In this document: piece by piece, positions 10,083 through 56,140 of the stretch
How positions within the stretch are numbered: the first letter of the stretch is position 1
Layout: the number at the start of each line of letters is the position of its first letter
DNA from: a virus
Length of the DNA stretch: 64,000 nucleotides
Virus record (IMG/VR): IMGVR_UViG_3300033146_002242
Location: 1-64,000 of that record
Direction: 5' to 3' (one strand)
Position numbers and translations under genes: made by a program
Notes under the pieces: model-generated
Seen by the model: the letters and a program-made list of their open reading frames with translations, nothing else
Database searches by the model: none
What the model was told of the DNA's origin: nothing

Positions 10083-10370
10083 CTATTTTTTATCATTTAA
10101 TAATCGCAACTCTTTGTCATAATCACTTCGCCACAAATACTCATCTGTAAATTTATCTATTTCACAATATCCACTACAATTAGAAATAAATCCTTTAATA
10201 TCATATTTCCATATAAGTTTTAAACATTCATTATAATATTTACATGATAAATATTTTTTACATCGAACATTTAATTTTTTAAAAAGATAAATTGTACAAC
10301 CTCGTTCATTGGTTAATTTTTTAATAAATTTTACTTTTTTGGTGTGGTTAAATCTGGAAGGATTTGTCAT
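10083..10370 (-). CDS. Cys-rich hypothetical protein, 95 aa
   Basis: Basic protein with seven Cys, several in the pattern RCKKYLSCKYYNEC and CSGYC, suggesting a metal-binding or disulfide core. The start overlaps the stop of the RNA polymerase fragment by four bases (ATGA), so it is co-translated. It contains no intein C-half or beta' sequence that I can see. Function unknown. Confidence 0.55.
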   Translation of the reverse strand: MTNPSRFNHTKKVKFIKKLTNERGCTIYLFKKLNVRCKKYLSCKYYNECLKLIWKYDIKGFISNCSGYCEIDKFTDEYLWRSDYDKELRLLNDKK

Positions 10371-11890
10371 TTATATTTTATTATATATTTATTTTCTGGA
10401 TTTTGTAATAAATCAATTGGAGAAATTTTTTGATACATATCATACTTAGAATCATACACAATCATAGAATGGTCATCTGAAACCCAGAAATCTTTAAATC
10501 TATTTTTGGTGTCACTAATCTTATACATTTTTAAATTTCTATGCTCACTATAATCTCTTATTAATTTCCGTTTTATATGACCTGTTTGTAAATCAATAGC
10601 ATCAATAAATAATTCCTTAACTGGATTATAATGACTTATATTTGGTTTTTCTTTATTTATATCATGCACAAATAAATCAGTATTTTTTAATTCAGATATA
10701 TGTTGGGAAAAAGGTGTGTTATCAACACTATAAATAGTGCAATCACACAAAACAGAATCTCCATCAAAATCTGCATTATGACCCCCAACTTTAGTGGGGT
10801 GTATTTTTATTGTATCACCATCATGAATAACTGGTCTATATCCTTGATAACTTTCTGGTAATAAAACAGGATCCCGTTTTGCTATAACATATCTTTTCTG
10901 AGCAACAATTTCAACAGCTTCTTTTATAAAATTATATAATTTATCAGAAATTTTATCATCAGCTTTGATTGAAGTTAAAATAGTTTTTAAATTTTCAACA
11001 CTAACTTCATAATTATCTTTATATTCATTAAATATTTCTTGTAGATAATCTGTTTTATATCTACCGCTTCTCATAATTAAATGAAGTATAAATGGTTCAA
11101 ATAAAGAAACAGCCGCCCTTAATGGAACACCTATTTCATCAGGTTTCAATGTTGGCTCGGTTGTGATTACACCAAATGCACAAAAATCAACTCTTTTGCC
11201 CATTAATTTATTACGAATAATACCAGTCTTTTTTTCAATTTTATTTTTTATAAATTCATGATGTACATTAACAGCTTTTTGAATACCATAAAAAAGCAGA
11301 TCTCCTAATACACCCGAATTTTCATTTTGAGATTTGACAGATAAACTTTTTCTTATAATTGAAACATATATTTCATTTAATTCATCTATAATCCATTGGT
11401 TGTTTGAATCTTGATATATTTCACGATAAAAAGGTGGTATAACAGGAATTTTATTTATAAACAAATTATTATCAGTATAAACTTTATTTATTAATTGTAT
11501 TAATCTTTCTCTTTCAGGAGTTCCACCACGAAATTTTATTTTTGCAAAATTCCTAATAAAATTAGTTAAACCTGTCATTCCATCTTCAACTTCAACTAAC
11601 TCACCTTTTTCCGTTATATCAAAATAATTTAACGTCGAAATATATCCATTAATTTTTCTATCAAGTCTTATTAAAATATTTAACATAACAGGATGGATAA
11701 CATTTGCATTTAAATTAATATATGAAAATGTATCCATCCTGTTTTTAGATTCTAACGGTCCAAAAATAATTTCTGAATATATACCATTTGGGTGAAATTC
11801 ACCAGATGATGTAGATCCAGAAAATATATCTGGAGATGTAACAGGTTTTAATTTTTTAGAAAATTTTGATAAATCCAGAATTTTAATCAA
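10367..11890 (-). CDS. RNA polymerase beta' N-terminal part fused to a probable split-intein N-half
   Basis: 507 aa. Residues 1-381 follow bacterial beta': FGPLESKNRMDTFSYINL and VIHP near the clamp, and GGHNADFDGDS with the catalytic Mg-binding NADFDGD at residues 372-378. Right after it, from Cys382, the sequence stops resembling polymerase. TIYSVDN..ISEL and FWVSDDHSMIVYD followed by KISPIDLL look like Hint/intein blocks A and B, and the ORF ends at residue 507 without an intein C-terminus. I infer a split intein with its C-half and the rest of beta' encoded elsewhere. No matching C-half is in this window. Confidence 0.8.
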   Translation of the reverse strand: MIKILDLSKFSKKLKPVTSPDIFSGSTSSGEFHPNGIYSEIIFGPLESKNRMDTFSYINLNANVIHPVMLNILIRLDRKINGYISTLNYFDITEKGELVEVEDGMTGLTNFIRNFAKIKFRGGTPERERLIQLINKVYTDNNLFINKIPVIPPFYREIYQDSNNQWIIDELNEIYVSIIRKSLSVKSQNENSGVLGDLLFYGIQKAVNVHHEFIKNKIEKKTGIIRNKLMGKRVDFCAFGVITTEPTLKPDEIGVPLRAAVSLFEPFILHLIMRSGRYKTDYLQEIFNEYKDNYEVSVENLKTILTSIKADDKISDKLYNFIKEAVEIVAQKRYVIAKRDPVLLPESYQGYRPVIHDGDTIKIHPTKVGGHNADFDGDSVLCDCTIYSVDNTPFSQHISELKNTDLFVHDINKEKPNISHYNPVKELFIDAIDLQTGHIKRKLIRDYSEHRNLKMYKISDTKNRFKDFWVSDDHSMIVYDSKYDMYQKISPIDLLQNPENKYIIKYK

Positions 11891-52825: not shown

Positions 52826-53391
52826 TCACTAAATAAGAGTGAGGCGGGCCTCGGCTAAGCAGAATAAATATTATATATATTTGCTCACTAAATAAGTGAG
52901 ATATTGTTGTGTTGTTTGGATAAATATTATATATGTTTGCTCACTTATTTAGTGAGACTGGATTTTTCCCTATCATCAGAATATTAATTAGATAAAAACA
53001 TATTTGCTCATTAAATAAATGAGATATAACCTGGCCGTTATTTTAATTAAATATTATGTATTTGCTCACTAAATAAGTGAGAGATTATGTTCTTTTGATT
53101 TAGGTATTAAAGTATTTTGAATAATATATGTTTGCTCATTAAATAAATGAGACAGGGCGTAAGAAGGTAAAAATAAATGAAATAGATTCATTTATAATAT
53201 ACAACATTATAAAGTTAAATAGTTTGTTCACTAAATAAGTGAAATGAGATTATTTTGTTTTTTATTAGATTATTAATCAAATAAAAACATGTTTGCTTAC
53301 TAAACAAGTGAGATGGGGATAGAGAGTTTGGACGTAAATCAGGTTTTTAAAATAAAATATATGTTTGCTCATTAAATACAATAAAAATGAG
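52826..53391 (+). repeat. Array of nine covarying hairpin repeats
   Basis: Nine copies of a 17-base inverted repeat, typically CTCACTAAATAAGTGAG, start near 52826, 52884, 52940, 53007, 53065, 53135, 53227, 53296 and 53369. Most are preceded by an AT-rich arm ending TATGTTTG, giving a repeat of about 38 bases separated by unrelated 15-45-base stretches. Stems covary: CTCAC/GTGAG, CTCAT/ATGAG and TTCAC/GTGAA. The loop of the third copy is inverted. This fills the 660-base gene-free region 52821-53484. It is not a CRISPR array because repeats diverge and spacers are irregular. Confidence 0.75.
53164..53240 (+). repeat. Duplicated 3' end of the 52140-52820 gene inside the hairpin array
   Basis: About 75 bases here match 52764-52838, covering the last codons of the LigD-POL-like gene plus the first hairpin, with a two-base insertion and a few substitutions. 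It shows that the array grew by duplication of gene-end plus hairpin. Confidence 0.75.
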
Positions 53392-53484: not shown

Positions 53485-54015
53485 ATGAAAGCTAATATTG
53501 AAAAAGAAAAACTTTTTAAAAAGTTTATAGATAATGGAGAAATTTGGGCTGATAAATATGGTAATATTTATAAGAAAAATGGAACTTGTAAATATCATTT
53601 AAATAATACTGGTTATTATAGATTATCATATAAATCAATAACTATTTTTGTGCATAGGTTGGTTTGGATTTATTTCAAAGGATTGATATATGATGATAAG
53701 CTACAAATTAATCATATTGATGGGGATAAATTAAATAATACTTTGGAAAATTTAGAAATTGTTGATAATAAAACTAATACAAAACATGCTATACTAATGG
53801 GTTTACGAACACCCATATCAGAAAAAACAAAACAATATTTTTCTGAAAAGATAAGGGGGTGCAAAAATATAAATGCAAAATTTACACAATCCGATGTTAT
53901 TTTATATAGGTATTTATATAAAATGGGCAAAATAAATATAAAAACAATTTCTGAAAAATACGATATAACACAACGAAGTGTAAAAAATATGTTGAGTGGA
54001 AAAACATATAATTAA
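53485..54015 (+). CDS. HNH homing endonuclease
   Basis: 176 aa. [20 protein letters not shown] then [19 protein letters not shown] and NKTNTKHA make the HNH_3/NUMOD-type nuclease core (residues about 50-105). The C-terminus ([31 protein letters not shown]) is a helix-turn-helix of the kind used by phage homing enzymes for DNA recognition. It ends seven bases before the tRNA-Leu gene that carries a group I intron, so it is the likely mobility factor for that intron although it lies outside it. Confidence 0.85.
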
Positions 54016-54022
54016 GTTATAT

Positions 54023-54382
54023 GCCCGGATGGCGGAATAGGTAGACGCAAGGGACTTGACTCGTAAATAAATTGAGCGGCATATTTGAAAAAATATGTTT
54101 GAATCGGGTGAATTCAGGGGAACCTTCTTAATTTTATTTAGAATTAAATGGCAATCCTGAGCCAAGACATCAACGCTTTGATGGAAGGTGCAGAGACTAG
54201 ATGGTGAGGAAAGATACGTTTCTCGTAAAACATCATAAGCGCCCGACACCTAAGGATTTTATTTTAATCTATGGTGATGATATAGTCCAGACCACAAACA
54301 TTGTAAAATGGCAATGAAAATTGTAGTGGTACGAAAATCCCTCGTTCGTAAGAACGTGCCGGTTCGATTCCGGCTCCGGGCA
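54023..54382 (+). tRNA. tRNA-Leu(UAA) interrupted by a group I intron
   Basis: Exon 1 is 54023-54057 and exon 2 is 54334-54382, giving an 84-nt tRNA. Acceptor GCCCGGA/TCCGGGC with discriminator A, anticodon stem AGGGA/TCCCT with loop CTTAAAA (anticodon UAA), long class II variable arm CGTTCGTAAGAACG, and T arm GCCGGTTCGATTCCGGC. No CCA is encoded. The exon junction falls after U34, inside the anticodon. It would supply a tRNA for TTA, a very frequent Leu codon in this AT-rich genome. Confidence 0.9.
54058..54333 (+). ncRNA. Group I intron in the anticodon loop of tRNA-Leu(UAA)
   Basis: 276 nt. The upstream exon ends in U and the intron ends in G, as group I splicing requires. An internal GAG can pair with exon CUU to give the P1 U.G pair. 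Core elements are visible: a Q-like AATCCTGAGCCAAG near 54155, R-like GCAGAGACTAGATGG, and S-like GATATAGTCCAGA, with GACTA (54195-54199) pairing to TAGTC (54283-54287) as P7. Insertion after U34 is the same site as the ancient cyanobacterial and plastid tRNA-Leu intron (subgroup IC3). No ORF inside. Confidence 0.85.
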
Positions 54383-54639: not shown

Positions 54640-55115
54640 ATTTAAAAGAATCGACAAAAACTTTTCGTTGTGGTAAATTGTAGTTCGCGAACACCACAAC
54701 ATAGGTGGGTAGATTGCACCTCTCCACCAAAAGTTACAAAACGATTGCCATTCTCGGCCAAGAATGGAAAAAGGTATTATTCGTTTATTGCTCGGAATGA
54801 ATAATATGCTTCGGTGAAGGCATCGGAGAATATAAAAAGAATTAAATAGCTTTGAAAATCAGGATTAACAAATATTGATACTCTCAGATTGCGAAGCCTC
54901 AGAGCTCTTAGATGAGCAGCCGGAGGATAGGCTGAGAGTTGGAGTCGTCGATACAGGGAGTCCAGAGAATACTGTCAAGTCTTAAGGCTTCGGTAGCAGT
55001 ATTTGATGACGGACCCGGTGCAGTGTAGAAGCTAGTCTGGTAACAGAAGGCAAGGCCACCGAAAGGCGCATGGCCCATGCCTCGGATTTGCTTGCGGGGC
55101 TTTTTATCCTAAGGA
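54640..55115 (+). ncRNA. Structured RNA A (copy with long 5' domain)
   Basis: No credible ORF in 54639-55123. The 5' part folds into strong hairpins (GTTGTGGT/ACCACAAC, GGTGG..CCACC, CCATTCT/AGAATGG, ATTATTC..GAATAAT). The 3' part starts with stem ACTCTCAG/CTGAGAGT (54880-54939), then a 112-base block (54940-55051) identical to structured RNA B, then a GC-rich hairpin and a T-run near 55105. Variable 5' half plus invariant 3' half next to tRNA genes is reminiscent of the large phage RNAs GOLLD and ROOL, but I cannot confirm either. Confidence 0.72.
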
Positions 55116-55829: not shown

Positions 55830-56140
55830 GGTATCTGTGCATAATAGGGTTAAAGTTCCTCCCTGCTGGATGTGTATAAACCAGTCTACACTTGGTATAA
55901 AGACTAAAGGTGGGGTCGACTCCCATTGCCCGCACTATTTTGACACCTCTGGATTGCGAAGCCTTGTACCCTTGTTTAGAGGGAGCCGAGAGGATAGGCC
56001 AGAGGTTGGAGTCGTCGATACAGGGAGTCCAGAGAATACTGTCAAGTCTTAAGGCTTCGGTAGCAGTATTTGATGACGGACCCGGTGCAGTGTAGAAGCT
56101 AGTCTGGTAACAGAAGGCGCGGGGCGTTTTTTAAAAAAAT
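55830..56140 (+). ncRNA. Structured RNA B (copy with short 5' domain)
   Basis: Outer pairing GTGC..GCAC and GGG..CCC (about 55836-55934) encloses hairpins including ACCAG/TTGGT and a GTGGG-GTCGACT-CCCAT arm that mimics a tRNA T arm. Stem ACCTCTGG/CCAGAGGT (55945-56006) replaces the ACTCTCAG/CTGAGAGT stem of RNA A with full covariation. Then comes the same 112-base block (56007-56118) as RNA A, followed by GCGGGGCG and six T, a plausible terminator. 56141-56312 is AT-rich with nothing evident. Confidence 0.72.

Follow-up and report, generated by a model that had tools for sequence, protein, structure and literature searches.

An ORF-less group I intron, apparently of phage and gammaproteobacterial lineage, in a viral tRNA-Leu(UAA) gene abutted by a free-standing HNH endonuclease gene

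The tRNA-Leu(UAA) gene of cyanobacteria and plastids carries a group I intron, and an intron in that gene of Pseudomonas was reported around 2002. Introns in tRNA-Leu(UAA) and tRNA-Arg(UCU) genes were noted earlier in Beggiatoa and Thiomargarita (PMC4853749). Phage introns tend toward conserved protein-coding genes according to a review of bacterial group I introns that also treats collaborative (trans) homing, in which an ORF-less intron is accompanied by an adjacent free-standing endonuclease gene; the known cases lie in protein genes (PMC3984707). A free-standing homing endonuclease may also be tied to phage tRNA genes, as is SegB of the T-even phages, a GIY-YIG enzyme whose activity does not involve an intron (PMC13096335). 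The locus described here resembles each of these in part. It shares with the cyanobacterial and plastid gene the tRNA, the insertion site and the overall group I core; its closest described counterparts are the tRNA-Leu(UAA) introns of Candidatus Achromatium palustre and of Beggiatoa and Thiomargarita; and, as in collaborative homing, a free-standing endonuclease gene lies beside an ORF-less intron, except that the candidate target is a tRNA gene. This tRNA seems to be one that the phage needs, since UUA is its main leucine codon.

Positions 54023-54382 of the window (the whole stretch of DNA analysed, 64,000 nucleotides from a virus record of 118,287 bases) form a complete tRNA-Leu(UAA) only after removal of 276 nt (54058-54333) following U34, the site used in cyanobacterial tRNA-Leu(UAA), as an earlier note on this DNA had recognised. 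ARAGORN called no tRNA-Leu at 54023-54382 when introns were disallowed and, when they were allowed, just one tRNA-Leu(taa), interrupted by 276 nt with junctions at 54057/54058 and 54333/54334, the same as those proposed in the note. A match to Rfam RF00028 at 54055-54306 spans the full model (positions 1-253) with 76.9 bits, well above the gathering score of 50 (E 8.6e-18), and is the sole group I match in the record. With this full-core match, U and G as the splice-site bases and a covarying P3-P9 core that includes P7, the insert belongs to the group I class: the phage tRNA gene does harbor a real and well-formed intron of this kind. The features of the locus, all on the + strand, are as follows, the helices from P3 to P9.2 coming from mapped helices and a covariation count (P7 from an alignment as well).

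53485..54015, +: HNH_3 endonuclease gene, 176 aa, free-standing (PF13392; best PHROG phrog_59)
54023..54057, +: 5' exon of tRNA-Leu(UAA), from acceptor stem to U34, ending GACUU (GACTT in DNA); ARAGORN with introns allowed
54058..54333, +: group I intron, ORF-less, 276 nt (RF00028 match, ARAGORN junctions, covariation)
54055..54076, +: P1, exon CUU (54055-54057) with intron GAG (54074-54076), U.G at the 5' splice site, read from the sequence
54080..54097, +: P2 hairpin, GAAA tetraloop at 54087-54090, covariation at 7/7 pairs
54104..54246, +: P3, UCGGGUG (54104-54110) with CGCCCGA (54240-54246)
54114..54160, +: P4, UCAGG (54114-54118) with CCUGA (54156-54160)
54123-54124 and 54150-54151, +: P5, CC with GG
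54161..54189, +: P6, GCC (54161-54163) with GGU (54187-54189)
54168-54173 and 54178-54183, +: P6a, CAUCAA with UUGAUG
54195..54287, +: P7, GACUA (54195-54199) with UAGUC (54283-54287)
54200..54239, +: extra segment between P7 and P3, with a P7.1-like stem at 54200-54234 (two alignments, P7-to-P7' distances)
54247..54276, +: P8, with CCUAAG (54249-54254) and UAUGG (54270-54274)
54291..54330, +: P9, ACCAC (54291-54295) with GUGGU (54326-54330)
54311-54324, +: P9.2, inner hairpin with GAAA loop
54334..54382, +: 3' exon of tRNA-Leu(UAA), from A35 to the discriminator base, starting AAAATC (ARAGORN)

U54057, the last base before the intron, pairs with G54074 in P1, and the last intron base is G54333; these and the two strands of P7 are the splice-site bases and group I partners that the note had claimed. 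The P2-P9 helices were written on the window sequence and then counted across an alignment of 28 phage, cyanobacterial and Achromatium tRNA-Leu introns, from which the wrongly trimmed row L300 had been left out. Pairing is standard in 96.1% of cells, and two-sided changes occur at 32 of the 49 pairs, as against 29-39% of cells and 11-16 pairs in a control in which the partners were slid. The inner P3 pairs are supported by few sequences, the aligner having gapped the remainder there, and UUGAG in the P1 region is kept in all rows of the alignment. Minimum-free-energy folding by itself is mildly unusual (z -2.28). Relative to P7 of the window, that of the cyanobacterial introns, GACUC/GAGUC, is a compensatory change. 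CCUAAG and UAUGG of P8 together read as what we take to be an 11-nt tetraloop-receptor motif. The extra segment at 54200-54239 aligns solely with its counterpart in the Achromatium intron, and because of it we are unsure of an assignment to subgroup IC3.

The gene does not encode a CCA end, as would agree with a decayed intron or a tRNA pseudogene from which the mature tRNA is not made. Such decay is nevertheless very unlikely, given that the helices of the core, the bases at the splice sites and the arms of the tRNA are all preserved, that every mapped core pair is a standard pair in the window sequence (P3-P8, where the note had thought that mutations would speak against the intron, included), and that UUA dominates among the leucine codons of the phage. 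In 20 window ORFs (26% G+C), UUA makes up 74% of leucine codons, or 62 per 1000 codons. The record contains eight intronless tRNA matches, of which the four in the window were typed, as Thr, Lys, Ser and Pro, and the split gene is the only leucine tRNA detected. Because UUA is the main leucine codon and the other typed tRNAs serve other amino acids, a working tRNA-Leu(UAA) is probably important for the phage, a point in favor of efficient splicing.

A conserved core motif was used to find introns in tRNA genes among genome contigs, and these came from cyanobacteria, gammaproteobacteria, Omnitrophota, Bacteroidota and others. In a computed tree of tRNA-Leu(UAA) intron cores, the window intron and its counterpart in the gammaproteobacterium Ca. 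Achromatium palustre (L268) are sisters (support 100/94), nested in a set otherwise composed of phage introns, most of which were gathered by a 3'-end motif that may make the set look tighter. The Achromatium intron occupies the same site in tRNA-Leu(UAA), has the extra P7-P3 segment in common with the window intron and is 78% identical to it over 171 kept columns; it differs in residing in a cellular genome, in its length of 367 nt and in its longer 5' part. In the order to which Achromatium belongs (up to 99 genomes), 19 of 19 group I matches, among the matches listed, sit in tRNA genes, namely Arg(UCU), Leu(UAA) or Arg(CCU).

The identical tRNA, the position after U34 and the core motifs are what would be expected if a cyanophage had carried an intron of the cyanobacterial or plastid tRNA-Leu type, and it was on the shared site that kinship with the cyanobacterial intron had been suggested. 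However, the 16 rows of the cyanobacterial group lie on one side of a branch supported at 100/100, their introns have a different P7 and P9, and the sister of the window intron is gammaproteobacterial and has the extra P7-P3 segment in common with it, so that this reading is scarcely tenable. Because the cyanobacteria stand apart and the window intron groups with Achromatium, a cyanobacterial lineage is not supported; the comparison with cyanobacterial introns that the earlier note had itself recommended places the window intron outside their clade. The intron thus occupies the classic insertion site without being, on the evidence of the aligned cores, of cyanobacterial lineage. On the basis of the tree, a cyanobacterial origin of the intron was rejected.

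Two further observations came from these collections. One contig of a Tatlockia MAG (L185), counted among the 16 rows of the cyanobacterial group, has a tRNA-Leu intron of cyanobacterial type and is likely misbinned. Group I introns with the same core motif also occur in tRNA-Asn(GUU) genes of archaeal and bacterial MAGs, many of them longer than 400 nt (L166, L168 (Pacearchaeota), L174, L183, L259 and others).

Contrary to the expectation that phage tRNA introns are uncommon, a scan of IMG/VR for a 3'-end motif of such introns matched at least 120 viral contigs, and ARAGORN found an intron-bearing tRNA in 75 of the first 80. Fifty-six of these were labelled Leu(taa), and most of the others proved on inspection to be the same tRNA with a shifted anticodon; labels other than Leu(UAA) were distrusted for intron-bearing tRNAs because many "Gln" calls are CAU-anticodon tRNAs under the U/G splice rule. 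The intron-bearing viral contigs reach 379 kb, and a terminase domain was present in 10 of 20 tested. Introns at the same site of tRNA-Leu(UAA) are present in the cultured Agrobacterium phage Atu_ph07 (MF403008; 278 nt), in Lak-C1 (340 nt) and in the huge phages LR756501 (735 kb; 205 nt) and LR756511 (595 kb; 700 nt, with a phrog_10822-like HNH match within). The Atu_ph07 intron, which like ours has no ORF of its own type inside, differs from it in belonging to another subclade and in having extra length in P8, and the phrog_10822-like HNH gene of that phage is far away in the genome, unlike the abutting HNH gene of the window.

The examined records of these four phages lack annotation of an intron-bearing tRNA, and introns go unmentioned in the publications on Atu_ph07 and on huge phages, though genomes in both carry the tRNA-Leu intron; nor did our literature search find a paper on phage tRNA group I introns. 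The intron is of a known kind, in a class of carrier for which we found no description in the literature searched. Since default tRNA search settings miss split genes, phage tRNA counts are probably too low. Cultured cyanophages, including S-TIM5, S-SCSM1 and S-CAM4, have intronless tRNA-Leu(UAA) genes with exons 93-97% identical, and intron presence therefore varies within phage groups. A megablast search with the first 25 kb detected no near relatives of the phage, and a close empty allele was looked for but not found among relatives sharing its 680-aa gene, whose tRNA-Leu(UAA) genes are intronless, 69-81% identical and do not match in position. Separately, in Klebsiella phage Muenster (MT708547; L162, ~1890-2230) an unannotated tRNA, whose anticodon is CAU if the U/G rule is applied, seems to be interrupted by a group I intron, and an HNH gene lies 3' of the tRNA that follows it.

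ORFs of 116 intron-bearing loci were scanned for HNH motifs, and HNH genes were found in three locations: inside the intron (10) and, within 1 kb, upstream (11) or downstream (13). The neighbouring genes are nearly all on the same strand and at most 50 nt from the tRNA, and certain upstream ORFs extend ~15-19 nt into the tRNA gene. A same-strand HNH gene lies within 300 nt of 19 of the 75 tRNA-Leu(UAA) genes with an ORF-less intron versus none of 92 intronless viral ones (Fisher p 6e-8, counting related contigs as independent), and HNH density elsewhere is equal in the two sets (7.7 and 7.4 per Mb, respectively). With loci clustered by their flanks, the contrast weakens to 3 of 22 clusters versus none of 66 (p 0.014). 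Where a flank-related group contains both alleles, the counts are 16/46 and 0/15 (one-sided p 0.005); flanks of paired alleles are ~60% identical there, and the comparison is thus one of presence and absence per phage group, not of near-identical alleles. The motif scan is cruder than a profile search, and divergent enzymes would be missed equally in both sets.

Most of the intron-linked HNH proteins have a GGNY motif in common and match phrog_10822; the motif is N-terminal in those encoded inside and downstream of the intron and C-terminal in those encoded upstream. A tree of the HNH domain, which has several long branches, requires at least six changes among the three locations. The phrog_10822-like HNH genes of cultured phages also occur in tRNA clusters without introns, and the family may therefore target tRNA genes generally. 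The recurrent HNH genes abutting or inside these introns fit collaborative homing at the group level, and their varied placement, within, behind or ahead of one and the same tRNA, provides a natural test set for co-travel of endonuclease and intron. A broader proposition, which we put forward tentatively and hold at a little under even confidence, is that tRNA-Leu(UAA) group I introns are widespread, overlooked mobile elements of phages, spread by tRNA-targeted collaborative homing through HNH genes that lie inside the intron, just downstream, or upstream and running into the tRNA gene, the window member using a different HNH family.

As had been reported, the HNH gene of the window is outside the intron: it ends at 54015, 7 nt before the start of the tRNA gene at 54023, so that an intron with no endonuclease ORF inside is paired with a free-standing endonuclease gene. 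Its product matches PF13392 (HNH_3) with E 1.2e-12 (47.6 bits versus a cut-off of 24.8) and phrog_59 with E 1.7e-27. BLASTP gave short matches only to the recurrent intron-linked HNH proteins, and its family, phrog_59 and not phrog_10822, is not the one that recurs at this intron site; a peptide-pattern search of IMG/VR confirmed no relatives. In the non-coding region upstream of the gene (52864-53385) are at least seven copies of a palindrome-like sequence, TTTGCTCAyTAAATAArTGAGA, spaced mostly 56-72 nt apart and once 161.

The HNH gene could be an independent homing endonuclease gene beside the tRNA gene, with the intron not mobilised by it but acquired through capture of a tRNA gene that held it or in a rare transfer event, and to us this account seems evenly poised. 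The family of the protein is free-standing and general among phages (matches at <60% identity in 527 phage records) and is not the phrog_10822 type seen in or beside other tRNA-Leu introns; tRNA-linked homing endonucleases can do without an intron, as SegB (PMC13096335) and the phrog_10822-like genes of intronless clusters illustrate; and the best-matching cellular gene, the tRNA-Leu gene of Achromatium, has similar exons together with the sister intron. On the other hand, with no other HNH_3 match in the 118,287-base record and few HNH ORFs in related loci (2.4 per Mb), a spacing of 7 nt is unlikely to have arisen by chance, and abutting same-strand HNH genes recur at intron-bearing but not at intronless tRNA-Leu(UAA) genes. 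The collaborative homing that the earlier note had envisaged thus stands as a group-level pattern, whereas the HNH of the window is of a different family; a role for that enzyme in spread of the intron is plausible in light of this analysis.

We therefore favor, with considerable confidence, a putatively self-excising intron in tRNA-Leu(UAA), belonging to a lineage of phages and gammaproteobacteria and abutted by a free-standing HNH gene which may carry it along. We infer that the intron splices: its transcript would fold into P1-P9, guanosine would attack after U34 at the U.G pair of P1, and the freed exon would then attack after the terminal G of the intron, joining the exons into a tRNA that reads UUA. 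Introns of this lineage would spread between tRNA-Leu genes, and the abutting HNH protein, as a putative free-standing homing endonuclease, would cut intronless alleles and might bring the intron with it by collaborative homing.

Two other features of the window were noted. A 129-nt direct repeat (54923-55051 and 55990-56118), 96-98% identical, is G+C-rich, non-coding and ends near terminator-like hairpins; it matches nothing in Rfam, recurs nowhere else in the record and lacks an exact 28-mer match in IMG/VR, and folding is unusual in the first stretch (z -2.3) and not in the second. An RNA polymerase beta-prime-like ORF lies at 10367-11890 on the - strand, with similarity that stops just after NADFDGD, and the remainder of the ORF could be an intein or other insertion.
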